NCBI RefSeq assembly: GCF_035917275.1
Contig: NZ_CP108509.1
Span: forward strand, 930,001-994,000
Direction of reading: 5' to 3'
Length of the DNA stretch: 64,000 nucleotides
From: Streptomyces sp. NBC_01237
GTDB lineage: Bacteria; Actinomycetota; Actinomycetes; Streptomycetales; Streptomycetaceae
Part shown: positions 30,688-53,489 of the stretch, one piece after another
Layout: each line of letters opens with the position of its first letter
Position numbering within the stretch: the stretch's first letter is position 1
Program-made: the position numbers and the translations under genes
Notes under the pieces: generated by a model
What the model was told of the DNA's origin: nothing
The model's database searches: none
The model's input: only the letters and a program-made list of their open reading frames with translations

Positions 30688-30931
30688 CGCTCGCGCTCCC
30701 CTCGGTACCCGGGCCCGCGCCCGTGGTCACCACAGCCTCCAGCAACGGGCGCGCGGGGGAAACAGGGCCTCCGCGGAACCGGACACGGCCCGGGCGGCAG
30801 GGACCGCGTCTTCGGTGCGGCGCACCGTCGACGGGGCGGTTTTTCGTCCGCCGCCACCAATCGGGACCGGTACGCCGCTGCCTAGTGTTCCCCTCACTCG
30901 GCGGCGGCCTGCCGCTCCTTCGGAGGTGACC

Positions 30932-32539
30932 ATGCCCAGTTCCGCAGGCAAGGGGACGCGACGTACACCGAAGCGCGGGGTGCGGCCCGTGACCGCTGTG
31001 GCGGCGGCGTTCGGTCTCATCGCCACAGCGGCCGCGTGCGGGGGCGGCTCGGCCGGGGGCAGCGCGGGGTCGAGGGTGGTGGTCGCCATCGGCGCCGATC
31101 CGGGCAGTCTCAGCCCCACGACGGCGCTGGCCGGCACCGCGCTGGCGATGAACTCCTTCGCCTACGACACGCTCGTGCACATCGCGGCGGACGGTTCGCT
31201 GATCCCCGGGGTGGCCGAGAAGTGGACGGTCACCTCCACTTCGGCCCGGTTCACCATCCGCTCCGGGGTGAGCTGCGAGGACGGCTCGGCGCTCACGGCA
31301 ACGGATGTGGCCGCCGAGTACAACCACATCGCCGACCCGGCGAACCAGTCGCCGATGCTCGGGCTCTCCGTACCCGTCACCGCCGTCGCGAAGGCCGACG
31401 AGGCGACGCGCACGGTCACCGTCACCACGACACGACCCGCACCGTTCATCGCGCACATGGCCCGGCTGCTGCCGCTGCTCTGCGAGGAGAGCCTGGCGGC
31501 CCCGGCCGCGCTGGCCAAGGCCACCGGGGCGAGCGGCCCGTACCGGCTGACCGAAGCGGTTCCGGGCGACCACTACACGTACGCCCGGCGGGACGGGTAC
31601 ACCTGGGGGCCCGGCGGCGCCACCGGGGAGGACCTTCCCCGCACGGTGGTGTTCAAGGTCGTCGCCAACGAGTCGACCGCGACGAACCTCCTGATGGCCG
31701 GGCAGATCGACGTCGCCCAGATCAACGGCGGCGACCAGCAACGGCTGGACGCGGCCGAGGTGAAGAACCGGAGCATCGACGCGCTGGTCGGCCAGCTCAT
31801 GTTCAACCAGGCCGCCGGGCGTCCGTCCGCCGACCTCGCGGTGCGCCGCGCCCTGATCTCCGTACTGGATCTCAAGGACCTCAGGAACGTCGCCACGGGC
31901 GGCATCGGGACACCCCCCACCAGCATCGGGGAGGTCGCGCCAACCCCCTGCACCGGCGACCCGGTGACCGGGAATGTCCCCGCCCACGACCCCGAGCGGG
32001 CCGCCGCCGCCCTCACCGCGGCGGGCTGGACCAGGAGCGGCGGCACCTGGACGAAGGACGGCAAGCCGCTGACCATCGGGTTCAGTTACGCGACCAACCA
32101 GGGCACGCAGGTCGCGTCGGCGATCGAACTGGCCGTCCAGAAGTGGACCTCCTTCGGGGTGAAGGCATCGGCCGACCCCGTGAGCGGGTCGAGCATCGCG
32201 GGCACCCTGACGGGCGGCGACTGGGACGTGGCCTGGGCTCCCATCGGGGTGACCCTCCCGGACCAGCTGACCCAGTTCTACGACGGACAGCCACCGCCGA
32301 AGGGCAACAACTTCGGGTCCGTCGCCAACCCCGACTATCACCGGCTCGCCGCACGTGCCTCCGCCATGCCCGGCACGTCGGGCTGCGCCCTGTGGGAGCA
32401 GGCGGGTGCCGCCCTGGTCAAGCGGGTCGACATCGTGCCGATCGTCAGCAGGCCGATCCGGCACTACGCGAAGGGCGTCACCTTCCAGGTGGACGGCGGC
32501 GGCATCATCCCCAGCACTCTGCGCCGGAGCGCGAGCTGA
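30932..32539 (+). CDS. Oligopeptide ABC transporter substrate-binding lipoprotein (SBP family 5)
   Basis: A 535-residue lipoprotein. A basic start (RRTPKRG) leads to a hydrophobic segment and a lipobox ending A-A-A-C (about residue 37). The mature part is a DppA/OppA-type binding protein: GADPGSLSPTTALAG opens the domain, and the AFAYDTLVHI-like NSFAYDTLV and FTIRSGVSCEDGSALTATDV segments are family signatures. It captures peptides or similar solutes outside the membrane and feeds them to the permeases encoded downstream. The ATG at 30932 has a clear cggagg site. It heads an operon of eleven genes, most joined by stop-start overlaps; its stop overlaps the first permease start (TGATG). Confidence 0.9.
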   Translation: MPSSAGKGTRRTPKRGVRPVTAVAAAFGLIATAAACGGGSAGGSAGSRVVVAIGADPGSLSPTTALAGTALAMNSFAYDTLVHIAADGSLIPGVAEKWTVTSTSARFTIRSGVSCEDGSALTATDVAAEYNHIADPANQSPMLGLSVPVTAVAKADEATRTVTVTTTRPAPFIAHMARLLPLLCEESLAAPAALAKATGASGPYRLTEAVPGDHYTYARRDGYTWGPGGATGEDLPRTVVFKVVANESTATNLLMAGQIDVAQINGGDQQRLDAAEVKNRSIDALVGQLMFNQAAGRPSADLAVRRALISVLDLKDLRNVATGGIGTPPTSIGEVAPTPCTGDPVTGNVPAHDPERAAAALTAAGWTRSGGTWTKDGKPLTIGFSYATNQGTQVASAIELAVQKWTSFGVKASADPVSGSSIAGTLTGGDWDVAWAPIGVTLPDQLTQFYDGQPPPKGNNFGSVANPDYHRLAARASAMPGTSGCALWEQAGAALVKRVDIVPIVSRPIRHYAKGVTFQVDGGGIIPSTLRRSAS

Positions 32540-33561
32540 TGGCCACGCTCCCCGCGCGCTCCCCGCGCCGACGGCGCACACTCGGCATGCCGCGATTCCC
32601 GCGCGAGCGGGCCCGCAGCCCCTGGGTCGGATTCGCCCTGCGCCGCACCTGGCGGCTGGTCGCCTCTCTTGCCGCCCTGGTCACCGCCGCTTTCGCGATG
32701 ATCCATCTGATTCCCGGGGACCCGGTGCGGGCGGCGCTGGGACCCACCGCCGATCCGGCCCTGGTCGATGCCCGCAGGCAGTCGCTCGGGCTGGACCAGC
32801 CGCTGCCGCAGCAGTACGGCGACTTCGTCGGCAGGCTGTTCCAGGGCAGCCTCGGGGACTCGATCGGTGCCCAGCTGCCCGTGTCCGAGATCATCTCCAG
32901 CCGGCTTCCGGCGACCCTGCAGATCGCCGTCCCCGCGTTCGTGCTGATCCTGCTGCTCGCGATCCCGGTGGGGATGACGGCCGCGGTCCTGACCCGGGAC
33001 GGCCGCAGGCGGCGCGGTGAACTCGCCTTCACCGGGATCACCGGATTTCTGGGCGCCGTGCCCGAATTCCTGCTGGCGGTCGGTCTGGTGGCCGCGTTCG
33101 CCGTGGCCTGGCCGGTCCTCCCGGTGGCCTCACAGGCCGGCCCTGCCTCCTACGTACTGCCGGTACTGGCCCTCACGCTCGTCCCGGCGGCGACGCTGTC
33201 GCGCATCGTCCGGGTGGAGACGCTGCGGGTGCTCGGAGAGGACTACATGCGTACCGCCCAGGCCAAACGGCTGCCCGCCCGGCTGCGCTATCTGCGGCAC
33301 GCGCTGCCCAATCTGCTGACCTCCTCGCTCACCCTGGGCGGCCTGCTGTTCAGCTCGCTGCTCGCCGGCACGGTACTGATCGAGAACGTCTTCGCCTGGC
33401 CCGGCCTCGGCACCACGATCGTGCAGGCCATCACCGAGAAGGACTACCCCCTGGTCCAGGGCGTCGTGCTGGTCTACGGGGCGGCCGCGCTGCTGATCAC
33501 CTTCGCCGTCGACGTGGCCGTGGCCGTCGCCGACCCCCGGTCCACCGTTCGCGGGAGCTGA
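32539..33561 (+). CDS. Peptide ABC transporter permease (DppB type)
   Basis: A 340-residue inner-membrane permease of the DppB/OppB class. It has a long first helix with IHLIPGDPVRAALG (the conserved periplasmic opening), then five further helices. The EAA loop reads DYMRTAQAKRLPARLRYLRHALPN. It pairs with the second permease domain in the next gene to form the channel. The ATG overlaps the stop of the binding-protein gene by one base. The N-terminus is about 30 residues longer than in typical DppB and is rich in Arg and Pro; a later start is possible, but the stop-start overlap favours this one. Confidence 0.9.
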   Translation: MATLPARSPRRRRTLGMPRFPRERARSPWVGFALRRTWRLVASLAALVTAAFAMIHLIPGDPVRAALGPTADPALVDARRQSLGLDQPLPQQYGDFVGRLFQGSLGDSIGAQLPVSEIISSRLPATLQIAVPAFVLILLLAIPVGMTAAVLTRDGRRRRGELAFTGITGFLGAVPEFLLAVGLVAAFAVAWPVLPVASQAGPASYVLPVLALTLVPAATLSRIVRVETLRVLGEDYMRTAQAKRLPARLRYLRHALPNLLTSSLTLGGLLFSSLLAGTVLIENVFAWPGLGTTIVQAITEKDYPLVQGVVLVYGAAALLITFAVDVAVAVADPRSTVRGS

Positions 33562-33563
33562 CG

Positions 33564-35483
33564 ATGCCTCAGAGGAATCACGACACCGCGCTGCGGCACC
33601 GGCTGGGGCGCACCCTCAGGACGCCGATCGGCGTCACCGCCCTCACCGCCTGCCTGGTGGTGGCGCTGGTCGCCGTGTTCGGCCCCACCCTGCTCGGCGC
33701 CCAGGCGGCGCGGGTGGACACGGACGCGATCAACGAGGGCAGCAGTGCCGCGCACCTGCTCGGCACCGACCAACTGGGCCGCGACATCGCCGCCCGGGTG
33801 GTGGTGGCGACCCGGCTGACCCTTCGCCTCACGCTGCTGGCCACCGCGATCGGGGTCGGTGGCGGGCTGCTGCTCGGTGTCGCACCCGCGGTGCTCGGGC
33901 GCCGCGCCGGGCGGCTGATCACCGCCGTGGTGGGCGTGCTGGTGGCCTTCCCCGGACTGCTGTTCCTCCTCTTCCTGGCCACGATCTTCGGCGTGGGCAG
34001 CACCGGGGCGGTGTTCGCGGTGGGGCTCGCCATGGTCCCGCCGATGGCACGGCTGGTGCAGAACCTCACGGCGTCGGTCGCGGGGGCGGACTACGTCTCG
34101 GCGGCACGGATCCTCGGTGTGGGGCGGTTCCGGCTGGTGGTCCGTCATCTGCTGCCCAACATCGCCGAGCCGTCGGTGCTGTTCGCCACCCAGGCGGCGG
34201 GGGGCATCCTGGTCGCCTTCTCGGGTCTCTCCTTCCTCGGGCTCGGTGTGCAGCCCCCGGACTACGACTGGGGGCGGCTGCTCAACGAGCAGTTGAACCG
34301 GGTCTATGTGAACCCGGTGGCGGCCCTGGCGCCCGGTGCGGCCGTGGTGCTGACGGGGCTGATGTTCGGGCTGGTCGGCGAGGTGCTCGCCCAGGCGGGC
34401 GGCCGACGGGCACCACAGGCGCGCGGGACGTCGGCGCCGCGGCGGCCGGAAAAGTTCGTGCGGGACACGACGGCCGGCGCCGACGGCGGGCCGGTGGTCC
34501 GGGCGCACGATCTACGGGTGACCTTTCCCGGCGGGCGGCAGGCCGTACGCGGCATCTCGCTGGACATCGGCGCGGGCGAGGCCGTCGGGCTGGTCGGCGA
34601 GTCCGGTTCCGGCAAGAGCCTGACCGCGCTGGCACTGGCGGACCTGGTTCCGCACCCGGGACAGGTCTCCGCGCGTACGCTCCGCTTCGACGGGCACGAT
34701 CTGCGGGCGGACCCCCGGCTGGGCACCGCCCTGGCCATGGTCTTCCAGGACCCGATGGCCTCGCTCAACCCCGCCCTGCGCGTGGGCCGCCAGCTCGCCG
34801 AGGTGGCGGAGGTGCACCTCCGCCACACCCGGGCGCAGGCCGCGGCGCGCGCCGTCGACCGGCTCGGCGCCGTCCGTATCCCGTCGCCGGAACGCCGGGC
34901 CCGGCAGCGGCCGCACGAGTACTCCGGCGGGATGCGTCAACGGGCCGTCATCGCGATGGGGCTGATGGGGAACCCGAAGCTGATCATCGCCGACGAGCCG
35001 ACCACGGCACTGGATGTGGCGGTCCAGAAGCAGGTGCTCGACCTGCTGGCCGAGGTGCGTGAGGACTCCGGCGCGGCACTGCTGCTGATCTCCCACGACC
35101 TCGCCGTCGTGGCCCAGGTCTGCGAACGGGTGCTGGTGATGTACGGCGGCCTGATCGTCGAGAGCCTCCCCGTCACGGAGTTGCTGCGCGGCGCCGCGCA
35201 CCCCTACACACGGGCGCTGATCGGAGCGGTCCCGACGATGACCACGGCCCCCGGTACGGAGCTGGTGACCATTCCGGGCCGTCCGCCGGAGCCGGGCGAG
35301 GACAGCGGCGGATGCTCCTTCGCCCCGCGCTGCGAACGGGCCCGGGAACGCTGTCACACAGCCGCGCCCGCGCTGGCCGGCTTCGGGGCGGGCCGGGAGG
35401 TCGCCTGCTGGTATCCGGTGGGCGGGGCGGCGGGCGGCGACCCCGTCGGGACCGCGCCACGGACGACGGAGGCCACCTCATGA
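33564..35483 (+). CDS. Fused peptide ABC permease (DppC) and ATPase (DppD)
   Basis: This 639-residue polypeptide joins two normally separate subunits. Residues 1 to about 285 are a DppC-type permease (GTDQLGRDIAARV near the start, EAA loop DYVSAARILGVGRFRLVVRHLLPN). A linker of about 25 residues rich in Ala, Arg and Pro follows. The rest is a DppD-type ATPase: Walker A GESGSGKS with Lys351, signature YSGGMRQR, Walker B LIIADEPTT, H-loop SHDLA. It ends in the oligopeptide ATPase tail with its Cys-containing CSFAPRCERARERC motif. Both halves look intact and there is no stop between them. The gene starts two bases after the first permease and its stop overlaps the next ATPase start. Confidence 0.9.
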   Translation: MPQRNHDTALRHRLGRTLRTPIGVTALTACLVVALVAVFGPTLLGAQAARVDTDAINEGSSAAHLLGTDQLGRDIAARVVVATRLTLRLTLLATAIGVGGGLLLGVAPAVLGRRAGRLITAVVGVLVAFPGLLFLLFLATIFGVGSTGAVFAVGLAMVPPMARLVQNLTASVAGADYVSAARILGVGRFRLVVRHLLPNIAEPSVLFATQAAGGILVAFSGLSFLGLGVQPPDYDWGRLLNEQLNRVYVNPVAALAPGAAVVLTGLMFGLVGEVLAQAGGRRAPQARGTSAPRRPEKFVRDTTAGADGGPVVRAHDLRVTFPGGRQAVRGISLDIGAGEAVGLVGESGSGKSLTALALADLVPHPGQVSARTLRFDGHDLRADPRLGTALAMVFQDPMASLNPALRVGRQLAEVAEVHLRHTRAQAAARAVDRLGAVRIPSPERRARQRPHEYSGGMRQRAVIAMGLMGNPKLIIADEPTTALDVAVQKQVLDLLAEVREDSGAALLLISHDLAVVAQVCERVLVMYGGLIVESLPVTELLRGAAHPYTRALIGAVPTMTTAPGTELVTIPGRPPEPGEDSGGCSFAPRCERARERCHTAAPALAGFGAGREVACWYPVGGAAGGDPVGTAPRTTEATS

Positions 35484-36268
35484 GCTCCCTGGAACTGTGC
35501 GGGATCACCGTGCGATACGGCCGCTTCACCGCAGTGGAGAACGTGGATCTGCTGGTGCCGGACGGGACGGTGACGGGCCTGGTCGGCGGTTCGGGGTCGG
35601 GCAAGTCGACCCTCGGCAGGGCCGTGGTGGGGCTGGCGCCACTGGCGGCGGGCCGCGTACGGGTGGCGGGGCGCGAGGTCGGCGTACGGCGCGGTCGCAG
35701 CCCGGTGCAGCTGGTGTTCCAGAATCCGTACGCCTCGCTCGACCCGCGCATGAGCATCGGTGCCGCGGTCGCCGAGGCCCTGCCCCGCCGGGCCCGTACC
35801 GACGGGGAGCCGAATCGCCGGCCGACGGCCCGCGAGCGGCGCGCCGCCCGGGACGCGGAGGTGGCGCGCTGCCTCGAACTCGTGGGCATCGACCCCGGGC
35901 GGGCGGCACTGACGCCGGACGCGCTCTCCGGCGGACAGCGCCAACGCGTCGCCCTGGCCCGCGCCCTGGCCGCCCGGCCCGCCGTGCTGATCGCGGACGA
36001 GATCACCTCGGCGCTGGACGTCTCCGTCCAGGGCGCGGTGCTCAATCTGCTGCGGCGGCTCCAGCGCGAACTGGGGTTCTCCATGCTGTTCATCTCCCAC
36101 GACCTCGCGGTCGTGCGCCATCTGTCCGACCAGGTCGCCGTGCTGGACGGCGGGCGCCTGGTCGAGTGCGGTCCCACCGCCGAGGTACTGGAGCGGCCCG
36201 CACACCCGACGACGCGCACCCTCATCTCCTGCGTACCCACCCTTGCGACCGCCGAGGAGGCGTCATGA
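35480..36268 (+). CDS. Peptide ABC transporter ATPase (DppF type)
   Basis: A 262-residue ATPase with Walker A GGSGSGKST (about residue 41), Q-loop LVFQNPYASLDPR, signature LSGGQRQRVALARAL, Walker B VLIADEITS and H-loop SHDLAVV. Together with the ATPase half of the preceding fusion it makes the heterodimeric motor of the importer. It lacks the long C-terminal oligopeptide-binding tail of some DppF proteins, ending shortly after the YTR-like HPTTRTL segment. The ATG overlaps the upstream stop (ATGA), and its own stop overlaps the start of the S9 peptidase gene in the same way, so transport and hydrolysis are translationally linked. Confidence 0.9.
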   Translation: MSSLELCGITVRYGRFTAVENVDLLVPDGTVTGLVGGSGSGKSTLGRAVVGLAPLAAGRVRVAGREVGVRRGRSPVQLVFQNPYASLDPRMSIGAAVAEALPRRARTDGEPNRRPTARERRAARDAEVARCLELVGIDPGRAALTPDALSGGQRQRVALARALAARPAVLIADEITSALDVSVQGAVLNLLRRLQRELGFSMLFISHDLAVVRHLSDQVAVLDGGRLVECGPTAEVLERPAHPTTRTLISCVPTLATAEEAS

Positions 36269-38205
36269 CCAGAGCACTGAGGATCGACGATGTGTACCGC
36301 TTCGAGATCCCCTGCGACCCCTCGTTGTCCCCCGACGGCGAACGCGTCGCGTACACGCTGACCACCCAGGATGCCGAGCGGGACTGTGCGGTGACCTCGA
36401 TCTGGGAGGTCCGCGGTACGGGCGGCCCGGCCCGCCGGCTCACCCGGGGTCCCTCGGACGCCGCGCCGCGCTGGTCCCCGGACGGCACGCGGCTGGCGTT
36501 CCTGCGCGCGGGGCAGTTGCATCTGCTGCCCGCGGACGGGGGCGAGGCGGCGCCGCTGACCACGGCCGCCCGGTGTCCGGCGGGGGCGGGGGTGCCGGTG
36601 TGGAGCCCGGACGGCTCGCGGATCGCGTTCGCGGGGCCGGGGTCGCGCCGCGAGGACACCGCCCCGGTGGTGATCGACGGCCTCGGCTGGAAGGTGGACG
36701 GGGCGGGTCTGCTCGGCGCGGTCCGCGCCCAGTTGTTCGTGGTGGAGGTGGAGTCCGGCGAGGTCCGGCAGCTCACGGACGGCGACCGGCACGCGGGCCC
36801 GCCCGCCTGGTCGCCCGACGGCACACGGCTCGCCTATCCTGCGCCGGCCGGGCCGGACGCGGATGTCACCGGGACCTCGGCGGCTCATGTCGTCGAGGTC
36901 GGGGCCGCCCTGCCCGCACCCGTACGGGTCGGCCCGCCCACGGGGGTGGCCGGGCCGGTGAGCTGGTACCCCGACGGGAGCGCGCTGCTCGTCGTCGGGC
37001 GGACCGGCACGGGGGTCGGCCATCTGGAGCTGCTGCGCCAGCCCCTCGACGGATCCGCTCCGGTGTCGCTCAGCGCCCCTCTGGACCGTAACGTCCTGCC
37101 CGGAGGGCCCGGATATCCGGGGGCGCTGCCGCAGTTCCACGGCGACGGCATCGTGTTCTGCGCCCGCGACCGGGGGGCCACCCGGCTCTACCGCGTCGAC
37201 GCTTCCGGGATCGGCGAGTTCGCGCTGCCCGCCGGTGAGGGGGTCAGCGGGTGTTCGGTCGCCGCCAAGGCGGGCCGGGCCGCGCTGGTCGTCTCCGACA
37301 CATCGAGTTTCGGCGAGATCGCGCTGCTCGACCTGGCTGACGCGGGGTCCGGGCGGCCGGGCGACCCGGGCAGCGGACGGCAGCCCGCGCGGCTGACCGC
37401 GCACATGGCGCGCTCGCTGCCCGGCGTCGCCCTCCACCCTTTCACCGAAAGGGAGTTCACCGTCTCGGACGGCACCGTCGTGCACGGGATGATCACCCGC
37501 GCTCCCGGCACCGCCCCGGGCGGCCCCCTGCTGGTGGACGTGCACGGCGGACCGCACAACGCCTGGGCGCCGCACGCCGATCCGGCCCACCTCTACCACC
37601 AGGAGCTGGTCTCGCGGGGCTGGACCGTCCTGACACTGAACGTGCGCGGCAGCGACGGCTACGGCGAGTCCTTCTACAGGGCCGCCGTGGGCGCCTGGGG
37701 CGAGGCGGACGAGCAGGACATCCTCGAACCGATCGCCGCCCTCGTCGACGAGGGGCTGGTCGACCCGGCCCGGATCGCGCTCACCGGCTACAGCTACGGC
37801 GGCTATCTGACCTGCTGGCTCTCCGCCCGCAGCGATCTCTTCGCCGCCGTCGTACCGGGCGGCGTGGTCGCCGACCTGACGAGCCTGGCCGGGACGTCCG
37901 AGGAGGGACATCTGATCGCCGGTCACGAGATCGGCGACCGGGACCGGCTGACGGCACTCTCCCCGCTCAGCCATGTGGACGCGGTCCGCGCGCCCACGCT
38001 GATCCTGCACGGCGGCGCGGACGACTGCTGCCCGGCCGGCCAGGCCGAGCAGTGGTTCCACGCACTGCGCACCCGGGGCGTACCGGTCCGGCTGGTGCTG
38101 TACCCGGGCTGCTCGCACCTGTTCATCCTCAACGGCCGGCCCTCGCACCGGGAGGACTACTCCCGGCGCCTCGTCGACTGGGTCACCACACACACCGACC
38201 GCTGA
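36265..38205 (+). CDS. S9 family (prolyl oligopeptidase-like) serine peptidase
   Basis: A 646-residue two-domain peptidase. The first 370 or so residues form a WD40/TolB-like beta-propeller with repeated 'SPDG' blades (PSLSPDGERVAY, PRWSPDGTRLAF, PVWSPDGSRIAF, PAWSPDGTRLAY). The C-terminal alpha/beta hydrolase domain has GYSYGGY with Ser510, GGADDCCP for Asp and GCSHLF for His. Such enzymes are acylaminoacyl or dipeptidyl peptidases that admit only short peptides through the propeller. No signal peptide is visible, so it works in the cytoplasm on imported peptides. It overlaps the importer ATPase gene (ATGA). Substrate preference (prolyl, acyl or D-residue) cannot be read. Confidence 0.9.
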   Translation: MTRALRIDDVYRFEIPCDPSLSPDGERVAYTLTTQDAERDCAVTSIWEVRGTGGPARRLTRGPSDAAPRWSPDGTRLAFLRAGQLHLLPADGGEAAPLTTAARCPAGAGVPVWSPDGSRIAFAGPGSRREDTAPVVIDGLGWKVDGAGLLGAVRAQLFVVEVESGEVRQLTDGDRHAGPPAWSPDGTRLAYPAPAGPDADVTGTSAAHVVEVGAALPAPVRVGPPTGVAGPVSWYPDGSALLVVGRTGTGVGHLELLRQPLDGSAPVSLSAPLDRNVLPGGPGYPGALPQFHGDGIVFCARDRGATRLYRVDASGIGEFALPAGEGVSGCSVAAKAGRAALVVSDTSSFGEIALLDLADAGSGRPGDPGSGRQPARLTAHMARSLPGVALHPFTEREFTVSDGTVVHGMITRAPGTAPGGPLLVDVHGGPHNAWAPHADPAHLYHQELVSRGWTVLTLNVRGSDGYGESFYRAAVGAWGEADEQDILEPIAALVDEGLVDPARIALTGYSYGGYLTCWLSARSDLFAAVVPGGVVADLTSLAGTSEEGHLIAGHEIGDRDRLTALSPLSHVDAVRAPTLILHGGADDCCPAGQAEQWFHALRTRGVPVRLVLYPGCSHLFILNGRPSHREDYSRRLVDWVTTHTDR

Positions 38206-38228
38206 ACACAACGAAGCTGGAGCCGACC

Positions 38229-39659
38229 ATGACCACGAATCCGGAGCCGAACATGACCGACACCGCCGTCCCGTCCGCCGAGCTGCCCCCGGGCCTGTCC
38301 GCGGAGCTGACCGCCCACTGGGCAGCCCGCCTCACCGAGCTCGCCGCCCGCTACCGGGTTCCCGGCGCGAGCCTCGCCGTCCTGCACCGGGGCGAGGTGA
38401 CGATCGAGGCGTCCACCGGCCTGGCCAACATGGAGGCCGGGATCGCGGCGACGACCGACACCCTGTTCCAGATCGGCTCGATCTCCAAGGTATGGACCAC
38501 CACGGTGGCCATGGCCCTGGTCGACGAGGGGCTGCTCGAACTGGACGCCCCCATCGTCTCCGTGCTCCCCGAACTGCGTCTCGTCAACGACGAGTTGACC
38601 CAGGGAGTGACGCTCCGCCATCTGCTGACGCACACCAGCGGCATCGACGGCGACTTCTTCGCCGACACCGGCCGGGGCGACGACTGCCTGGAGAAGTTCA
38701 CCGCGCTGCTGGCCGATGTCGCCGCCAACCACCCGCTGGGCGCCACCATGTCGTACTGCAACGCGGGCTTCACCCTGCTCGGCCGGGTGCTGGAGCATGT
38801 CACCGGCGTCCAGTGGGACGAGCTGATGCGTGAGCGCCTGTACCGGCCGCTCGGCCTGACCCGTACGGTCACCCTGCCGGAGGAGGCGCTGCTCCACCGC
38901 GCCGCCGCCGGACACCCGGGCGAGCCCCCGGCGCTCGCCCCGCAGTGGGGCCTGATGCGGTCGGCCGGACCGGCCGGGCTGATCTGCTCGACGCCGCGCG
39001 AGGTCCTCGCCTTCGCCCGGATGCACCTCGACGGCGGTGTCTCCGGGAACGGCACCAGGATCGTCTCGGCCGAGAGCGCCACCGCCATGCAGACCCCGCA
39101 GGTGAAGGTCCCCGACGCGAACATGCTGGGGCATGCCTGGGGGCTGGGCTGGATCCTCGACACCTGGGACGGACAGCCGGTGTACGGCCACGACGGCGGG
39201 ACCATCGGCCAGAGCGCGTTCCTGCGGGTGCTGCCGGGGGCCGACCTCGCGATCTGCCTGCTCACCAACGGCGGCGACACCATGGGCCTGTATCTGGAGG
39301 TGTTCTCGGAGATCGCCCGCGAGCTGGCCGGGGTGACGATGCGCGCCACGCTCCAGCCCGCGAAGGAGCCGGTCGCGTTCGACCCGGCCGAGTACGTCGG
39401 GGTGTACGAGCGGATCTCCAGCCGGATGGAGATCGTGGAGCGGGACGGCGCTCTGGTGATGCTCGACAAGGTGACGGGGCCGCTGGCCGGGCTGACCTCG
39501 GAGCCCGACAAGGAGTACGCGATGCACCCGGTCGGGCCGGGTCTCTTCGTGCTGCGCCGGCCCGGGTTCAGCACCTGGATCCCGGTCGTGTTCTACACGC
39601 TCGCCGACGGCACTCCGTATCTGCACCACGGTGCCCGCGCCACCCCGAAGGCCCTCTGA
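38229..39659 (+). CDS. Serine hydrolase, beta-lactamase class C/D-aminopeptidase family
   Basis: A 476-residue protein. Residues 30-370 carry the class C beta-lactamase-fold motifs SISKVWTT (S-x-x-K), YCNAGF (Y-x-N) and HDGGTIG (H-x-G in place of K-T-G). An extra C-terminal beta domain of about 90 residues follows, as in D-aminopeptidases and some esterases. The Y-x-N and H-x-G pairing is typical of D-aminopeptidase, EstB and R61-like enzymes. No signal peptide is present. Among importer, peptidases and an amino-acid racemase, a cytoplasmic D-aminopeptidase or D-peptide hydrolase is the most attractive reading, but esterase activity is equally possible from sequence alone. The ATG at 38229 has GGAG upstream. 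Confidence 0.85.
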   Translation: MTTNPEPNMTDTAVPSAELPPGLSAELTAHWAARLTELAARYRVPGASLAVLHRGEVTIEASTGLANMEAGIAATTDTLFQIGSISKVWTTTVAMALVDEGLLELDAPIVSVLPELRLVNDELTQGVTLRHLLTHTSGIDGDFFADTGRGDDCLEKFTALLADVAANHPLGATMSYCNAGFTLLGRVLEHVTGVQWDELMRERLYRPLGLTRTVTLPEEALLHRAAAGHPGEPPALAPQWGLMRSAGPAGLICSTPREVLAFARMHLDGGVSGNGTRIVSAESATAMQTPQVKVPDANMLGHAWGLGWILDTWDGQPVYGHDGGTIGQSAFLRVLPGADLAICLLTNGGDTMGLYLEVFSEIARELAGVTMRATLQPAKEPVAFDPAEYVGVYERISSRMEIVERDGALVMLDKVTGPLAGLTSEPDKEYAMHPVGPGLFVLRRPGFSTWIPVVFYTLADGTPYLHHGARATPKAL

Positions 39660-39660
39660 C

Positions 39661-40806
39661 GTGCCCGCGTTCGCCACCGCGCTGGAGGCGGGTCTGCCGG
39701 ACCTGCTGGCGGGCATCGAGGAGCTGGTGCTGGCCGAGTCGCCCAGCACGGACCGGGCCGCCGTCACGGCCTGCGCCCGGGTCGTCGCCGCACTCGGCAC
39801 CCGGCTGACGGGTGCCGAGCCGGAGTGGCTGGACACGCCGGGAAGTCCCGCCCTGCGCTGGCGCTTCGGCTCCGGTGACAAGGTGCTGCTGCTGGGCCAC
39901 TTCGACACGGTCTGGCCGGTGGGCTCCCTGGCCGGGCACCCCTTCGCGGTGACCGGGGGCCGGCTGACGGGGCCCGGCTGTTTCGACATGAAGGCCGGGG
40001 TGGTGCAGCTGTTCCACGCGCTCTCCGTGCTCGACGACCGGGACGGCGTATCGGTGCTGCTCACCGGCGACGAGGAGATCGGCGCCCCGGACTCGCGCGC
40101 CCTCATCGAGGCCGAGGCCCGCCGTACACGCGCCGTGCTGGTCCTGGAGGCGAGCGAGGGCGGGGCGCTGAAGACGGCGCGCAAGGGGGTGTCCGGCTAC
40201 GAACTGGGGATCGCCGGACGCGCGGCGCACGCCGGTCTCGAACCCGAGCGGGGCGTCAATACGACCACCGAGCTGGCGCACCAGGTGCTCGCGGTGTCGG
40301 CGCTCGCCGATCCGACGACCGGCACCACGGTGACCCCGACCGTGGCCTCCTCCGGCACCACCGGCAACACGGTGCCCGACGCGGCCCGGCTGCTGGTCGA
40401 CGTACGGGTGGGGAGCCTCGGCGAACAGGTCCGGGTGGACCGTGCGATGGGCGCACTGGCGCCGGTGCTCGCGGGCGCCTCACTGCGGGTGTCGGGCGGT
40501 CCTAACCGGCCGCCGCTGCCGGCGAGCGCGTCACAGGAGCTGTTCGCCCGTGCCCGCAGCCTCTACGCCGGCCTGGGCTTCGGGGCGCTGCGCGGAGTGG
40601 CGGTCGGCGGCGGCTCCGACGGCAATCTGACAGCCGGGGTGGGTACGCCCACGCTGGACGGACTGGGGGCGGTGGGCGGTGGGGCGCACGCCGACGACGA
40701 GCATGTGACCGTCGCCGAACTGCCCCGTCGCGCGGCGCTGGTGGCGTCGCTGGTGACCTCGCTCGTACGTGAGCCGGTGGCCGGGACGGACCGGGTGGAA
40801 GCGTGA
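39661..40806 (+). CDS. M20 family metallopeptidase/N-acyl-amino acid deacylase
   Basis: A 381-residue enzyme of the M20 (carboxypeptidase G2/ArgE/DapE) family. Metal and catalytic motifs are in order: HFDTVWPVGS with the first His-x-Asp, GCFDMKAGV with the bridging Asp, and TGDEEIGAPDS with the catalytic Glu-Glu pair; a dimerisation lid occupies about 185-295. These two-zinc enzymes cleave C-terminal residues or N-acyl groups from amino acids. The GTG follows the previous stop by one base (TGACGTG). It is directly followed by a GNAT acyltransferase and an OSBS-like racemase, so removing the N-succinyl group from L-amino acids is a specific and testable role. Confidence 0.88.
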   Translation: MPAFATALEAGLPDLLAGIEELVLAESPSTDRAAVTACARVVAALGTRLTGAEPEWLDTPGSPALRWRFGSGDKVLLLGHFDTVWPVGSLAGHPFAVTGGRLTGPGCFDMKAGVVQLFHALSVLDDRDGVSVLLTGDEEIGAPDSRALIEAEARRTRAVLVLEASEGGALKTARKGVSGYELGIAGRAAHAGLEPERGVNTTTELAHQVLAVSALADPTTGTTVTPTVASSGTTGNTVPDAARLLVDVRVGSLGEQVRVDRAMGALAPVLAGASLRVSGGPNRPPLPASASQELFARARSLYAGLGFGALRGVAVGGGSDGNLTAGVGTPTLDGLGAVGGGAHADDEHVTVAELPRRAALVASLVTSLVREPVAGTDRVEA

Positions 40807-41660
40807 ACAGTACGCACGTCGTGGCCGCGGCGGCCGCCGCGGAACGGGCGGCGCTCGATGCGGGGGTGAGCGTCGCGGAGCTGCACGATCCGGACGAGAT
40901 CCTGGCGGCCTGCGGGCTGCTGGACCGGATCTGGCGGCCCCAGCCGGGCAACCCGCTGATCACCCCGGAACTGCTGCGCGTCTTCGCCCACTCCGGCAGC
41001 TATGTGGTGGGAGTCCACCGGGACGGCGAGATGACCGGGGTCTGCCTGGGGTTCCTGGCCACCGCCGGGCTGCACTCGCACATCGCCGGGGTGGCCGGCA
41101 GCGCCCGCGGCCGCAATGTCGGGTTCGCCGTCAAACTGCACCAGCGGGCCTGGGCACTGGCCCGTGACATCACGACGGTGACCTGGACGTTCGACCCGCT
41201 GGTCAGCCGTAACGCCTACTTCAACCTGGCGAAGCTGGGGGCGGTGCCGAGCGAGTATCTGGCCGACTTCTACGGCACGATGCACGACGCGGTGAACGCC
41301 GGTACCGAGACGGACCGGCTGCTGGTCCGCTGGGAGCTGACCGGCGGGTCCGCCGTCGGGGCCGCCGCGGGCACCCCCCTCGTCGTCACGTACGACACCC
41401 CGGGTGCCCGCACCGTGGTCGCACTGGACGCCAAGCCCGACGGCCGTCCCGCCGTCGGCCGCCTGGACGGCGACACCGTACTGGTGCGGATCCCGGCGGA
41501 GATCGAGGCGCTGCGCCGCACCGACCCGCCCCTGGCCCGCGAGTGGCGGTACGCGCTGCGCGAGGTCCTCGGTGGGCTGATGGAGCAGGGACACGCCGTC
41601 ACCGGATTCACCCGGGACGGCTGGTATGTGATCGACAAGCGTCAGGAGAGAACGGCATGA
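40803..41660 (+). CDS. GNAT-superfamily acyltransferase, possible N-succinyltransferase
   Basis: A 285-residue protein of the predicted GNAT group COG3375. The acetyltransferase-like core spans about residues 25-170 (GSYVVGVHRDGEMTGVCLGF, VAGSARGRNVGFAVKLHQRAW for the acyl-CoA pyrophosphate loop, WTFDPLVSRNAYFNLAKLGA). A second domain of about 110 residues follows. Relatives sit beside OSBS/racemase genes, and a GNAT enzyme is the succinyl-CoA-dependent N-acylase in the known D-to-L amino acid inversion pathway of Geobacillus. The GTG overlaps the M20 stop, and the stop overlaps the racemase start. The acyl donor and acceptor are inferred from context. Confidence 0.8.
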   Translation: MNSTHVVAAAAAAERAALDAGVSVAELHDPDEILAACGLLDRIWRPQPGNPLITPELLRVFAHSGSYVVGVHRDGEMTGVCLGFLATAGLHSHIAGVAGSARGRNVGFAVKLHQRAWALARDITTVTWTFDPLVSRNAYFNLAKLGAVPSEYLADFYGTMHDAVNAGTETDRLLVRWELTGGSAVGAAAGTPLVVTYDTPGARTVVALDAKPDGRPAVGRLDGDTVLVRIPAEIEALRRTDPPLAREWRYALREVLGGLMEQGHAVTGFTRDGWYVIDKRQERTA

Positions 41661-42763
41661 AGCTCGTCGGTGTGGAACTGCGCCGGATCGCGATGCCCCT
41701 GGTGGCACCGTTCCGGACCTCGTTCGCCACCCTGACCTCCCGGGAGATCCTGCTGGTCAGGGTCGAGACCGAGCACCACGAGGGGTACGGGGAGTGCGTC
41801 ACCATGGCCGATCCGCTGTACTCCTCGGAGTACACGGCGGCGGCGGTGGACGTCCTGCGCAGCCATCTGGTGCCCGCGCTCGGCGCACTGCCCACCCTCG
41901 ATCCATGGGCGGTCGCCCCGGCGCTGGCCGCTTTCAAGGGCCACCGGATGGCCAAGGCGGCGCTGGAGACGGCCGTGCTCGACGCCTGGCTGCGCGCCCA
42001 CGAGCTGTCGATGGGCCAGTGGCTGGGGGCGACGGCCGAGCGGGTGCCGGCCGGGGTGTCGGTCGGCATCATGGACTCCGTCCCCGCCCTGCTCGACGCG
42101 GTCGACGGCTATCTGGCCGAGGGATACCGGCGGATCAAGCTGAAGATCGAGCCCGGCTGGGACGTGGCACCCGTGCGGGCCGTCCGCGAGCGCTTCGGCG
42201 ACGACGTGGCGCTCCAGGTGGACGCCAACACCGCCTACACCCTCGCGGACGCCGGGCAGCTGGCCCGGCTGGACCCGTACGGTCTGCTGCTGATCGAACA
42301 GCCGCTGGACGAGGAGGACATCCGGGGCCACGCGGCACTGGCGCGTCGGGTGCGGACCCCGATCTGTCTGGACGAGTCCATCGTCTCCGCCCGGTCGGCG
42401 GCGGACGCGATCGCGATGGGTGCCTGTTCGGTCGTCAACATCAAACCGGGCCGGGTGGGCGGCTATCTGGAGGCGCGGCGGATCCACGACGTGTGCGCCG
42501 CGCACGGCGTCCCTGTCTGGTGCGGCGGCATGCTGGAGACGGGGCTGGGCAGGGCCGCCAACGTCGCCCTCGCCGCGTTGCCCGGGTTCACCCTGCCCGG
42601 CGACACCTCGGCCTCCGACCGGTACTACCGCACCGACATCACCGAGCCGTTCGTCCTCGATGACGGCTACCTCGATGTGCCCCGGGGGCCGGGGCTCGGG
42701 CTCTCCCCCGTCCCCGGCCGGCTGGCCGAGGTCACCGAATCGACGGAATGGATCAGCCGATGA
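41657..42763 (+). CDS. OSBS/N-acylamino acid racemase (enolase superfamily)
   Basis: A 368-residue enolase-superfamily protein of the MenC/NAAAR subgroup. The catalytic lysine pair K-L-K lies near residue 162, metal ligands follow in VDANTAY, IEQPLD and CLDES, and the second-side lysine is in NIKPGRVGG. It also has the GGMLETGLGRAAN loop of o-succinylbenzoate synthase/N-succinylamino acid racemases. No other menaquinone genes are nearby. In an operon with a GNAT acyltransferase and an M20 deacylase, it is best read as an N-succinylamino acid racemase turning N-succinyl-D-amino acids into the L forms. MenC activity cannot be excluded, as many members do both. It overlaps the genes on both sides (ATGA). 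Confidence 0.87.
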   Translation: MKLVGVELRRIAMPLVAPFRTSFATLTSREILLVRVETEHHEGYGECVTMADPLYSSEYTAAAVDVLRSHLVPALGALPTLDPWAVAPALAAFKGHRMAKAALETAVLDAWLRAHELSMGQWLGATAERVPAGVSVGIMDSVPALLDAVDGYLAEGYRRIKLKIEPGWDVAPVRAVRERFGDDVALQVDANTAYTLADAGQLARLDPYGLLLIEQPLDEEDIRGHAALARRVRTPICLDESIVSARSAADAIAMGACSVVNIKPGRVGGYLEARRIHDVCAAHGVPVWCGGMLETGLGRAANVALAALPGFTLPGDTSASDRYYRTDITEPFVLDDGYLDVPRGPGLGLSPVPGRLAEVTESTEWISR

Positions 42764-43686
42764 CCACGATCCGGCCGGGTACGACGGGAATACCGACCGC
42801 CACCGCCGAGAACAGGATCCGGGCGGCGTTCGACGAAGCCGGGGTCGAGGGATTCTTCCTCGCCCGCGAGATCGACGGGGACCGCACGATCGGCGTCTCG
42901 GCGGACGAACCGGTCGTTCTCGCCTCGGTGTTCAAGATCCCGGTCGCCCTCGCCTACGCCCGCGAGGCCGCCGCCGGGCGGCTGGAGCGGACCGAGCGTC
43001 TCGCGGTGGACACACGGTACCGGGACGGTGGAATCGGCACGTCCGGCTGCGCCGACCCGATCGAGATGAGCCTGCGCGACCTCGTCCACCTGATGCTGAC
43101 GATGAGCGACAACGCCGCCACCGACGTGGTGCTGGCCCGGGTCGGTCTCGACACGGTCAATGGCCTGCTCCGTGAACTCGGCCTGGAGCACACCCATCTG
43201 ATCGGCGGCTGTCTCGAACTGATCAGCTCGCTCCTCGCGGACCTCGGCGCGTCCACCGAGGCCGAGGCGCACGCGAAGCTGGCGGCGCTGGGGCCGGAGC
43301 GGATCATGGAGCTCTCGGTGTGCGTGCCGGAGCTCACCACCCGCTCCACGGCCCGGGAGACCGCCGAACTGCTCGCCCGTATCTGGCGTGACGAGGCCGG
43401 TTCCGCGGTCGCCTGTGCCGAGGTGCGGGCCGTGATGGCCCAGCAGATCTGGCCGCACCGGCTCGGCTCCGGGTTCGACGACAGCTACCGGCTGGCCGCG
43501 AAGACCGGGACGCTGCCGGGCTGGCGCAATGAGGCCGGGGTGATCGAACATCCGGGCGGCGGGCGCTGGGCGGTGGCCGTCTTCACCCGGTCCGACACCC
43601 CCGACCTGCGCAATCCCCGGGCGGACCGGGTGATCGGGCAGGTGGCGCGACTGGCCGTCGACGAACTCCGATCCCTTAGTTTGTGA
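42760..43686 (+). CDS. Class A beta-lactamase-like serine hydrolase, cytoplasmic
   Basis: About 308 residues. The penicillin-recognising motifs are in order: SVFKIP (S-x-x-K), MSDNAAT (S-D-N) and AAKTGTLPG (K-T-G). The omega-loop Glu of true class A beta-lactamases is not clear; the matching stretch reads LTTRSTARETA. No signal peptide is visible, so resistance to external beta-lactams is unlikely. An intracellular amidase or peptidase role on cyclic or D-residue peptides fits the operon better. I start at the ATG at 42760, which overlaps the racemase stop (ATGA); an ATG four codons earlier (42748) is possible. Its stop overlaps the regulator gene downstream. Confidence 0.85.
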   Translation: MTTIRPGTTGIPTATAENRIRAAFDEAGVEGFFLAREIDGDRTIGVSADEPVVLASVFKIPVALAYAREAAAGRLERTERLAVDTRYRDGGIGTSGCADPIEMSLRDLVHLMLTMSDNAATDVVLARVGLDTVNGLLRELGLEHTHLIGGCLELISSLLADLGASTEAEAHAKLAALGPERIMELSVCVPELTTRSTARETAELLARIWRDEAGSAVACAEVRAVMAQQIWPHRLGSGFDDSYRLAAKTGTLPGWRNEAGVIEHPGGGRWAVAVFTRSDTPDLRNPRADRVIGQVARLAVDELRSLSL

Positions 43687-45287
43687 CGATGACGGAGCAG
43701 CCGCGGGCCGTGCTCGGCCGGATACTCACGGATCTGGGATCGACGCTGATCGAGGTGGTGGCCGGGGAGGCGGATCCGGCCCGTGCCGTGACCGGGGTGC
43801 TGATCCAGGACCCGTTGGACGAGCCGGCCCGGCTGCCGGGCGCGGTGGTACTCGGCGTCGGGGTGTACGGCGCCGAGCAGGTCGCCGCCCTCGTCGACCG
43901 TTCCGCCGGTCTCGGCGCGGCGGCCGTGGTGGTCCGGTCGCCGGTCCCGGTGGAGGGGCCGGTGTCCGAGGCGGCCGCGCGCACCGGCCTCACCGTGCTG
44001 GGCCTGACCCCGGGCGCGTCCTGGGCGCAGGTGGCGGCGCTGCTGCGGTCGCTGCTCGCCGTCGACGAACTGGGCACGGTGGGCGGTCCCGACGAGGCCG
44101 ACGGCGGTGAGCCGCTGGCCGGGGATCTGTTCGCCCTGGCCAACGCGACGGCCGGGCTCCTGGACGGCCCGGTCACCGTGGAGGACCGCAACGGGCGGGT
44201 GCTGGCGTTCTCCAGTCGGCAGGACGAGGGCGACGAGGCCAGGATCGCGACCGTCCTGGACCGTCAGGTGCCCGCGGAGAAGCTGCGGGCGCTGGAGGAG
44301 CGCGGCGCCTTCCACGCCCTGTACCGCAACGAGGGTCCGGTCTTCGTGGAGGGCATCTCCGCCAAGCCGCGGGTCGCGATCGCCGTCCGGGCGGGCGGTG
44401 AGATCCTCGGTTCGATCTGGGTCGTCGTCGAGGGCCCGCTGAGCGAGGACCGTACGCAGTCCCTGCACGAGGCGGCGAAGGTGGCGGCCCTGCATCTGCT
44501 GCGGCAGCGGACGGGCGAGGACGTCGAGCGCCGGCTGCGCGCGGATCTGCTCGCCACCGTGCTGGAGGGCGGCCCGCACGCGCCCCAGGCCGCCATCCGG
44601 CTGGGCCTTTCGGTGCAGCCCGCCTGCGTCCTGGCCCTGGCGGTCACCGGAGAGGCGTCCGCGCCCGACCGGGCGGCGGCGGGCGAGCGCGTCGCGGAGG
44701 CCCTCGCCCTGCATCTGTCGGCGATCCACCCCCGTACGGCGGCGGCCTCGCTGGGTGGTGTCAGTTACGCGGTTCTGCCGACGAGTTCGGACGAGCAGGC
44801 GCTGCGGGTGGCCGAGGCGTTCCTGGGCCGCATCGGCGGTCGGGTCCCGGCCGTCATAGGCGTCGGCAGGCTCGCCGCGCGCCCGGCCGAGCTGCGACGT
44901 TCCCGCGCGGATGCGGACCGGGCGCTGCGGGTGCTCTGCTCCGGGCGCTCGGCGCGCCGGGCGGCCCGGCTGTCGGACGTCTACGCCGCCTCGCTGCTGG
45001 AGGAGCTGACGGACCGGATCGCCGCCGAGGACGATCTTCCCGACGGTCCGGTGGTCCGGCTGCGCGCCTACGACGCGCGGCACCACACCGCCCTCACCGA
45101 GACGCTGGACGCCTGGCTGAGCACGTTCGGTGATGTGATCGCCGCCGCGGCCACCGTCCACATCCACCCCAATACCTTCCGGTACCGGCTCAAGCGGCTG
45201 GCCGTGGTGGCGGGCATCGACCTCGGCGACCCGGAGGCACGGTTCGAGGCCATGCTCCAGTTGCGGCTGCGGCCGCCCGGTCCGTGA
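43683..45287 (+). CDS. PucR/CdaR-family transcriptional regulator
   Basis: A 534-residue regulator. The N-terminal PucR-like ligand domain spans about residues 15-130, and a GAF-like part (about 150-270; GPVTVEDRNGRVLAFSS) follows. The C-terminal HTH_30 has the diagnostic VHIHPNTFRYRLKRL near residue 500. PucR/CdaR proteins sense a catabolic substrate and activate the genes for its use (purines, sugar diacids, amino acids). The GTG overlaps the stop of the beta-lactamase-like gene (GTGA), which makes it the last of eleven co-transcribed genes. It most likely controls this operon from the 30688-30931 promoter region in response to an imported peptide or D-amino acid. Confidence 0.88.
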   Translation: MTMTEQPRAVLGRILTDLGSTLIEVVAGEADPARAVTGVLIQDPLDEPARLPGAVVLGVGVYGAEQVAALVDRSAGLGAAAVVVRSPVPVEGPVSEAAARTGLTVLGLTPGASWAQVAALLRSLLAVDELGTVGGPDEADGGEPLAGDLFALANATAGLLDGPVTVEDRNGRVLAFSSRQDEGDEARIATVLDRQVPAEKLRALEERGAFHALYRNEGPVFVEGISAKPRVAIAVRAGGEILGSIWVVVEGPLSEDRTQSLHEAAKVAALHLLRQRTGEDVERRLRADLLATVLEGGPHAPQAAIRLGLSVQPACVLALAVTGEASAPDRAAAGERVAEALALHLSAIHPRTAAASLGGVSYAVLPTSSDEQALRVAEAFLGRIGGRVPAVIGVGRLAARPAELRRSRADADRALRVLCSGRSARRAARLSDVYAASLLEELTDRIAAEDDLPDGPVVRLRAYDARHHTALTETLDAWLSTFGDVIAAAATVHIHPNTFRYRLKRLAVVAGIDLGDPEARFEAMLQLRLRPPGP

Positions 45288-45333: not shown

Positions 45334-46347
45334 TCATCGCAGGGCGTGCACCGCCGCCCCGAACAGCGCCGGTGCGCGCTGGGCCGCGGTGACGATCAGA
45401 CGGCCTCCGCCGGGGTACCGGGCCGCCCTCAGCAGGGCTTCGGTGAGCAGCCGGTGACGTCTCGTCAGCCGGGCCCAGTGCCGGGGGTAGTCCTGGGGGC
45501 GGCCTGTGGCCAGGCAGCCGATCGCCGCGGTGGCCGTCGCCATGGCCAGGGCGATGCCCTCCCCCGTCAGCGCGTCGATGTAGCCCGCCGCGTCGCCGAC
45601 CAGCAGGACACGTCCGGCCCGCAGGCTCCGGGCTCCCTGCCGCAGGGGTCCGGCGCCGCGCACGGGGGTGGCGTCCAGGCCGTCGAGTACGGCGGCGAGC
45701 GCGGGGAAGGCGGTCAGGTGCCGCGCGTAGGGGCGGCGGTCGCGGCTGAGTACGGCCACGCCCACGAGGTGCTCCCCGACGGGTGTCACATAGGCCTCGC
45801 CCTGCCGGGACCAGTGGACTTCGACGAAGTCCGTCCAGGGGGCGATCCGGTAGTGGCGGCGCAGCCCGTAGCGCCGCGGCGCCGCGGCGGGGCGGTCGAG
45901 GCCCAGTTCACGGCGGAGCGGGGAGTGCAGACCGTCCGCGGCGATGAGCCAGCGGGCGGTGAGTCCCATCGCGCCGACGCTGTCGTGGTGCTGGCGGACG
46001 CCGGTCACCTTGCCCGGTACGACCCGGACGCCGAGTTCCACGGCCCGCCGGTGCAGCGCGGTGTGCAGTTCGGTCCGCCGTACGCCGAGCCCCCGGCCGT
46101 CGCGGAACGCCGCCTGGGCGCTGCGGCCGCCTTCGAGGTAGCGGATTCCCCGCAGTTCGCGGCCGGAGGGCCGCACTCCCAGCGCCCGCAGGGCCGCGAC
46201 CCCGCTCGGCATGATCCCCTCGCCGCACGCCTTGTCGACGGGGGTGGTGCGGGGTTCGACCACGACGGTGTCCATCCCCGCGCGGGCCGCCGCGATCGCC
46301 GCGGCCAGGCCGGCCGGGCCGCCGCCGGCCACCAGGACGTCGATCAC
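45334..46347 (-). CDS. FAD-dependent oxidoreductase (SrsC-like / geranylgeranyl reductase family)
   Basis: A 337-residue flavoprotein. The dinucleotide fold is VLVAGGGPAGLAAAIAAARAG; it is followed by KACGEGIMPSG, a motif of the geranylgeranyl reductase/aromatic hydroxylase group, and the second FAD motif RVLLVGDAAGYIDALTGEGI. In the Streptomyces griseus srsABC operon the third gene encodes a flavin hydroxylase that oxidises methylated alkylresorcinols to quinones; the gene order here is the same. The GTG at 46347 overlaps the methyltransferase stop (GTGA). The alternative, a reductase acting on prenyl double bonds, deserves thought because a UbiA prenyltransferase lies nearby. Hence SrsC-like is a context-based call. 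Confidence 0.82.
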   Translation of the reverse strand: MIDVLVAGGGPAGLAAAIAAARAGMDTVVVEPRTTPVDKACGEGIMPSGVAALRALGVRPSGRELRGIRYLEGGRSAQAAFRDGRGLGVRRTELHTALHRRAVELGVRVVPGKVTGVRQHHDSVGAMGLTARWLIAADGLHSPLRRELGLDRPAAAPRRYGLRRHYRIAPWTDFVEVHWSRQGEAYVTPVGEHLVGVAVLSRDRRPYARHLTAFPALAAVLDGLDATPVRGAGPLRQGARSLRAGRVLLVGDAAGYIDALTGEGIALAMATATAAIGCLATGRPQDYPRHWARLTRRHRLLTEALLRAARYPGGGRLIVTAAQRAPALFGAAVHALR

Positions 46348-46871: not shown

Positions 46872-46883
46872 GTGTCCTCCGTC

Positions 46884-47939: not shown

Positions 47940-48057
47940 CCCGACTCCTGCTTAGGCGGCGTCATGGCCCCATCCTGCCCCCAGAAGTGGATGAATCGCC
48001 GTAAACGACCCGTGCGGCTGTCGTGTTGGCCCGGCCCCGGGTCCGTACGATCAGCCG

Positions 48058-53337: not shown

Positions 53338-53349
53338 GGTGGATTCCTC

Positions 53350-53485: not shown

Positions 53486-53489
53486 GGTC

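Follow-up and report, generated by a model that had tools for sequence, protein, structure and literature searches.

A putative operon for the salvage of D-residue peptides in Streptomyces sp. NBC_01237 and its recurrence among actinobacteria

What could a Streptomyces do with a single operon in which a peptide importer and serine hydrolases of the penicillin-recognising fold are joined to an N-acylamino acid racemase? Such an operon lies at 30932-45287 of the window, i.e. the whole stretch of 64,000 nucleotides analysed here (positions 930,001 to 994,000 of contig NZ_CP108509.1, Streptomyces sp. NBC_01237, genome size 10.19 Mb). It consists of eleven open reading frames (ORFs), all on the + strand, and 7 of its 10 junctions are overlapping. 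Judged from the gene content, the operon rather probably serves the salvage of peptides with D-residues, which would be taken up, cleaved in the cytoplasm, and turned into L-amino acids by N-succinylation, racemisation, and desuccinylation; both the substrate and the direction of this route are deduced from the families involved. An earlier note on this DNA had described an eleven-gene co-directional operon, and its gene list and coordinates agree with the ORFs and with the Pfam and NCBIfam matches. The features are, in order:

30810..30847, +: conserved upstream footprint CTTCG ... CGCAC ... TTTTTCGT, candidate promoter/operator, ~85 bp before the first start codon
30932..32539, +: family 5 solute-binding protein of a peptide/nickel-type ATP-binding cassette (ABC) importer (PF00496, 165.3 bits)
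32539..33561, +: importer permease B (PF00528, PF19300)
33564..35483, +: importer permease C and ATPase D, fused (PF00528, PF00005, and oligo_HPY within one ORF)
35480..36268, +: importer ATPase F (NCBIfam dipeptide/oligopeptide ATP-binding profiles; the matches shown are below cut-off)
36265..38205, +: S9 peptidase, beta-propeller plus alpha/beta hydrolase (PF00326, PF07676; Ser510, Asp586, His618)
38229..39659, +: S12 serine hydrolase, class C beta-lactamase fold (PF00144, 233 bits)
39661..40806, +: M20 hydrolase, carboxypeptidase G2 relative, proposed L-specific desuccinylase (PF01546; 1cg2, 123.7 bits)
40803..41660, +: GNAT-fold enzyme with a C-terminal extension, proposed D-amino acid N-succinyltransferase (AlphaFold, Foldseek, VIA)
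41657..42763, +: racemase of the N-succinylamino acid racemase (NSAR)/o-succinylbenzoate synthase (OSBS) family (1sja, TIGR01928, catalytic residues)
42760..43686, +: class A beta-lactamase-fold serine hydrolase, BlaB/PBP-A-like
43683..45287, +: PucR/CdaR-type regulator (PF13556, PF17853)

The racemase matches the Amycolatopsis N-acylamino acid racemase 1sja with 588.8 bits over 367 residues; the Amycolatopsis NSAR/OSBS, for which there are also the structures 4a6g and 7s8w, is among its nearest known counterparts. It also scores 309.7 bits with TIGR01928 (cut-off 200.65), a model that bears the name of OSBS but does not distinguish between the two activities. The Lys pair of the MLE subgroup and the metal ligands (K161, K163, D189, E214, D239, and K263) are present in 81/81 aligned sequences, as is R266, a determinant of racemase activity. 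The NSAR/OSBS family identity given in the earlier note is well founded on this score and these residues. NSAR/OSBS enzymes are well-known examples of enzyme promiscuity. The closest NSAR matches in named genomes are from Streptomyces (93-95%), and at E 1e-100 an NSAR is found in 76 of 295 same-genus genomes. Three related genomes (G674, G676, and G677) hold three NSAR paralogues each, with ~80%, 69%, and 63% identity to the window NSAR, which suggests several specialised racemases per genome. NSAR kinetics are tabulated in PMC8142540, and NSARs act on many N-acyl groups and are used with L- or D-acylases in biocatalysis (PMC7431475); the available passages of these two papers contain no natural operon or physiological role of actinobacterial NSARs.

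The M20, GNAT, and NSAR genes of the window are linked by 4-bp overlaps. The GNAT fold was missed in sequence searches of Pfam, NCBIfam, and PDB. The AlphaFold model has a pLDDT of 95.2 and is matched to GNATs by Foldseek and VIA over about residues 21-182, the C-terminal extension being barely covered by the structural matches; this confident model bears out the GNAT assignment made earlier. In the M20 hydrolase, the metal-ligand candidates H80, D109, E138, E139, E163, and H343 are kept in 53/53 sequences.

Conservation was assessed in the best 80 NSAR loci from named genomes, all actinobacterial, at fixed identity thresholds and with flanks of up to 10 kb, several of them incomplete. The GNAT gene is found in 74 of these loci, M20 in 52, PucR in 45, S12 in 38, ATPase D in 32, ATPase F in 31, permeases B and C in 29 each, and the binding protein and S9 in 25 each. 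The class A-fold gene is present in 12; an amidohydrolase, found in 10, and an M19 dipeptidase, found in 9, mark variants of the locus. GNAT adjoins NSAR in all 74 loci that have it, PucR does so in 32/80, and the M20-GNAT-NSAR trio occurs in 50/80. The importer together with S9, S12, M20, GNAT, and NSAR is found in 18/80 loci with 10 genus labels, and 14 loci are collinear from permease B to NSAR. A search for the same gene set in other genomes, as the earlier note had proposed, thus finds it to recur. Twenty-six clusters of neighbours are present in at least 4 loci; those annotated outside the operon are the amidohydrolase, M19, MFS transporters, an SDR, an FtsX-like permease, and an aldo/keto reductase, and one has no match. 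In a Nonomuraea locus (L036:7782-10004), the GNAT ORF was called at 740 aa, far longer than elsewhere, either from an over-called start or as a fusion.

A search for the GNAT gene on plasmids gave 43 matching records, of which 8 were examined. On two Streptomyces plasmids and one Arthrobacter plasmid, importer, serine hydrolase, M20, GNAT, and NSAR genes stand together. In other phyla, NSAR-GNAT is accompanied by genes for amino acid uptake or by regulators of the MurR/RpiR type. An amino acid ABC importer and a MurR/RpiR gene precede it in Sulfitobacter, and on a Priestia plasmid it comes after MurR/RpiR, M20, and permease-like ORFs. Deinococcus sp. QL22 has NSAR-GNAT with MurR/RpiR and a binding protein, and D. 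radiodurans has it with binding-protein genes and no MurR/RpiR there. On the Priestia plasmid (L095:7159-8639), the permease-like gene between M20 and GNAT is in two consecutive ORFs and is possibly broken. Overall, GNAT-NSAR looks like the constant core, which in many actinobacteria appears to be joined to peptide uptake and cleavage.

This core has a known counterpart. In 2006, Sakai et al. reportedly described a pathway of irreversible D- to L-amino acid conversion in Geobacillus kaustophilus, and its NSAR, GNAT N-acyltransferase, and M20 hydrolase are said to be encoded together. The operon of the window would thus have the same set, and the same three-step chemistry is proposed for it. 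However, the window adds the peptide importer, S9/S12, and PucR, its M20 belongs to the carboxypeptidase G2 branch, and its GNAT activity is predicted. The statement of the earlier note that the trio equals the Geobacillus route is supported in so far as the trio recurs, but is too strong as an equation: at the one Bacillota locus examined, that of Priestia, NSAR is 44% and GNAT 27% identical to those of the window, while M20 aligns only over 70 residues at 27%.

The part of the operon that lies before the trio would deliver the substrate. In the S9 peptidase, Ser510, Asp586, and His618 are kept in 24/24 aligned sequences. The S12 active site consists of Ser84-x-x-Lys87 (SxxK), Tyr176-x-Asn178 (YxN), and His321-x-Gly323 (HxG); Ser84/Lys87 are kept in 43/44 sequences (one gap) and the YxN and HxG residues in 44/44. 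D-stereospecific hydrolases of family S12 (D-aminopeptidase 1ei5, D-amino acid amidase 2dns, alkaline D-peptidase 4y7p, and ClbP) have the same fold and the same three motifs. The window enzyme differs from them in being closest to IS11 (7spn, 208.1 bits) among solved structures, cytoplasmic by prediction, and fused to S9 in many relatives. With the NCBIfam D-aminopeptidase model NF009622, it scores 71.6 bits, below the cut-off of 443. The earlier label 'D-aminopeptidase-like' therefore holds at the level of the fold only.

S9 and S12 form a single uninterrupted reading frame in 19 of the 27 loci that hold both (24 of the 80 NSAR loci, two plasmid loci, and one from another genome); they are adjoining but separate in 6 and apart in 2. 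One of the two loci with the genes apart is L014, where Pfam finds S9 alone and the S9 gene runs to the end of the stretch, so that a fusion is possible there as well. Both domains were found by Pfam in one protein for L102, L097, L043, L064, and L012, L012 and L097 being cut by the end of the stretch. In the S9 tree, from which L002 (separate, with an S9 fragment only) was left out and in which the window is the sixth separate row, the separate form falls into one group with support 100/100, and the fused rows need three label changes; the long-branched fused row L064 joins the separate group weakly (68/52). Since the separate rows form one supported group, one fusion or fission event can explain it. 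The fusion is spread over Nocardioides, Microbacterium, Actinomadura, Arthrobacter, Lentzea, Jiangella, Amycolatopsis, and other Streptomyces, which favours a common substrate for the two hydrolases.

The two genes also travel together: 23/25 S9 loci hold S12. Among 21 related genomes, there are 6 S9 matches (E 1e-100) in 5 genomes, each directly beside an S12 match, and 12 S12 matches (E 1e-60) in 7 genomes, 6 of them without this S9. Four of the five S9-S12 pairs outside the window have an NSAR nearby on the same contig; near the fifth (G677:C184), no NSAR was found at E 1e-60. The view that the importer and the serine hydrolases are real partners of the trio, which the earlier note had taken, is borne out by the full sets and by the fusion.

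Export was assessed by a crude check, in which N-terminal hydropathy was computed for segments starting within the first 35 residues and the sequences were read. The maxima are -0.10 for S9, 0.48 for S12, 1.56 for M20 (residues 33-47), and 0.70 for the class A-fold protein, as against 2.07 for the binding protein, whose N-terminus suggests a lipoprotein. By this crude hydropathy test, no export signal is seen in S9, S12, M20, or the class A-fold protein, and S12 is probably cytoplasmic. Cleavage is therefore placed in the cytoplasm.

The likeliest course of events can be described as follows. The ABC importer, to judge from its families, would take up short peptides, and S9 and S12 would cut them jointly inside the cell, the most likely targets being L-residues for S9 and D-residues for S12. 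GNAT would then move the succinyl group from succinyl-CoA onto the freed D-amino acid, NSAR would racemise the N-succinyl-amino acid, and M20 would strip succinate from the L-form, by which the reaction would be pulled from D to L. The chemistry of these last three steps is known for family members. Control of the operon probably lies with PucR, which would act at the promoter region (~30810-30930).

That the substrates are D-configured is suggested by the variants. The amidohydrolase scores 658.4 bits with NCBIfam PRK09061 (cut-off 340), and among solved structures it comes closest to N-acyl-D-glutamate deacylase 3gip and D-aminoacylase 1m7j. The M19 dipeptidase, found also on the Arthrobacter plasmid, belongs to a family that accepts dipeptides ending in a D-residue. 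The racemase, the D-aminoacylase-like amidohydrolase, and M19 thus point together to D-configured substrates. D-amino acid substrates, as proposed in the earlier note, have become likelier through these genes in relatives, with D-residue peptides as the putative cargo of the importer. The relatives of the binding protein in the PDB are 6lu2, NikA, AppA, MppA, and DppA, a set that does not point to one substrate.

Several observations weigh against the salvage of D-residue peptides as the role of the operon. No GNAT match was found in 6/80 loci and no M20 match in 28/80 in the flanks examined, and a Catenulispora locus (L004) lacks M20 although the remainder of the operon is there; it follows that the desuccinylase is not always encoded in cis. 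At the thresholds used, and with many flanks incomplete, 42/80 loci are without S12 and 55/80 without S9. One Microbacterium plasmid record has a GNAT homologue with no NSAR annotated nearby. A D-aminoacylase beside NSAR may also serve L-to-D conversion. Finally, the relatives of the binding protein are so mixed that they point decisively to no single peptide-binding protein or ligand.

Four other explanations of the operon have to be weighed. The racemase could be the OSBS of menaquinone synthesis, present in the operon by chance; the model that it exceeds is named for that enzyme, and its Amycolatopsis relative is called NSAR/OSBS. The genome, however, has two PF02621 futalosine-type genes; the 5 weak MenD matches in it are all below cut-off (other men genes were outside the search), and of its seven TIGR01928 matches only one is over the cut-off. 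Since the futalosine-type genes are present and no MenD is over the cut-off, a menaquinone role is very unlikely, and with the GNAT partner conserved the explanation is scarcely credible and was rejected. A racemase acting only as OSBS, which the earlier note had named as the outcome that would count against it, is likewise disfavoured by these genes. The operon could instead be dedicated to the recycling of peptidoglycan stem peptides (D-Ala and D-Glu), as an actinobacterial counterpart of dpp-ykf of Bacillus subtilis. The latter is a murein peptide operon with a dipeptide-type ABC importer, an enolase-superfamily epimerase, and a D-amino-acid-related peptidase. An importer, an enolase-superfamily enzyme, and a D-amino-acid-related peptidase are common to both, and the hydrolases of the penicillin-recognising fold, the N-acyl-D-glutamate-deacylase-like and M19 genes in relatives, MppA among the relatives of the binding protein, and MurR/RpiR near NSAR-GNAT in Priestia, Sulfitobacter, and Deinococcus sp. 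QL22 (not D. radiodurans) all agree with such a role. In the window, however, N-succinylation is proposed instead of dipeptide epimerisation, and the NSAR family is known for N-succinyl or N-acyl substrates, not dipeptides. L-Ala-D/L-Glu epimerase profiles score only 72.1 bits (cut-off 500) and 52.5 bits (cut-off 343) with the window products, and no LD-carboxypeptidase or NlpC/P60 match is seen in the eleven products (Pfam for ten, NCBIfam for ATPase F). A murein-specific analogue of dpp-ykf is therefore unlikely and is kept only as a rival.

A breakdown of N-acylated or ordinary L-peptides, in which GNAT-NSAR would serve only to repair or recycle N-acyl-amino acids and D-residues would be a side matter, would fit the M20 hydrolase, which resembles carboxypeptidase G2, the S9 family, whose members commonly act on L-peptides, and the many N-acyl groups accepted by NSARs (PMC7431475). 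Yet a racemase is pointless for L-only substrates, and D-aminoacylase-like and M19 genes lie in the same loci, so that this explanation is rather improbable. The inactivation of a D-residue antibiotic, either a nonribosomal peptide or a beta-lactam, by import and hydrolysis might be read from the two beta-lactamase-fold proteins, the importer plus peptidases, and the patchy distribution of NSAR within the genus. Against this, the import of a toxin is an unusual defence, and the class A-fold gene is in only 12/80 loci and scores 75.8 bits with the NCBIfam class A model NF033103 (cut-off 200). An antibiotic target is highly improbable, and for the last two reasons beta-lactam resistance is not favoured as the purpose of the operon. 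The salvage of D-residue peptides is thus the reading retained.

The class A-fold protein itself has SxxK, SDN, and KTG motifs that are invariant in 16/16 sequences, and a candidate counterpart of Glu166 (position 191, chosen without residue-level superposition) is acidic in 12/16. The beta-lactamase-like part of the earlier description holds for the window, but the gene is peripheral, as it was not found in 68/80 loci at the threshold used, several flanks being incomplete. It may be an optional extra that either adds another D-residue hydrolase or acts with PucR in the manner of BlaB. The same fold is found in BlaB of Streptomyces cacaoi (2wuq), to which the protein is 30% identical, and in PBP-A (2j7v), which is ranked high by Foldseek; PBP-A is not among the 50 VIA matches listed, from which nothing is concluded. 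A LysR gene adjoins BlaB, whereas PucR adjoins the window gene. Of ten stretches with homologues, eight are remote from both this operon and its NSAR relatives; five of the eight (L133-L136 and L140) yielded the ORF of the homologue, each time beside a LysR gene and with no hint of a substrate, whereas it was not recovered in L137, L141, and L142. One of the five (L133) is in the same genome as the window, where a second class A-fold gene (G000:C1:3192046-3192927) stands beside a LysR-type gene, an arrangement similar to BlaA-BlaB of S. cacaoi. It is quite conceivable, if not favoured, that the window protein is no catabolic enzyme but a co-regulator like BlaB, with a D-residue compound as its ligand and PucR as its partner, which would be compatible with peptide salvage; the invariant catalytic motifs and its presence in far fewer loci than PucR speak against it. 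Amycolatopsis loci L008, L012, and L014 have NSAR beside GNAT, S12, class A-fold, and importer genes.

The upstream footprint was aligned in six rows: one from the window, one from Catenulispora L004, and four from further genomes of the genus, of which one belongs to the same species; L001, L003, and L009 were not included in the alignment. The exact pattern is found in 3/246 same-genus genomes, always upstream of this operon, and once in its own genome; G465, whose aligned footprint differs by one base, was not matched by this exact search. The footprint is a candidate for binding by RNA polymerase or, putatively, by PucR. It is also kept in Streptomyces atratus OK807 (L002:5759-8000), where the binding-protein, ATPase, and S9 genes are fragments and S12, M20, GNAT, NSAR, and PucR remain; either the import part may have been lost naturally or the assembly may be at fault.

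On the 3' side of the operon (45334-48927), three kinds of product can be read from ORFs of the - strand, namely an FAD-dependent oxidoreductase, a protein like isoprenylcysteine methyltransferases, and a type III polyketide synthase; a UbiA-like prenyltransferase on the + strand follows (all by reading of the ORFs, without a profile search). A cyclic di-AMP (ydaO/yuaA) riboswitch lies at 53340-53499 (- strand) with 60 bits against a gathering score of 38.

Neither the complete import-cut-invert operon nor the S9-S12 fusion was found described among the titles and openings of abstracts listed from the open-access literature, which is weak evidence, subscription papers being mostly outside the search. 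With the inversion chemistry already known from 2006, what is new is that it is joined to a peptide importer and an S9-S12 peptidase, and that this union is widespread in Actinomycetota. A wider proposal is made tentatively: actinobacteria might possess a dedicated and widespread way of eating D-residue peptides that other organisms produce, with an importer, a bifunctional S9-S12 enzyme whose single polypeptide cleaves both L- and D-bonds, and its own means of turning D into L, by which peptide antibiotics and cell-wall fragments would become ordinary L-amino acids, and this would be the native role of the long-studied actinobacterial NSARs. As a candidate peptidase with two functions, the recurrent S9-S12 fusion would be suited to mixed L/D peptides. 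The conserved operon gives actinobacterial NSARs a testable physiological setting and predicts how soil bacteria could recycle D-amino acids that are locked in peptides.

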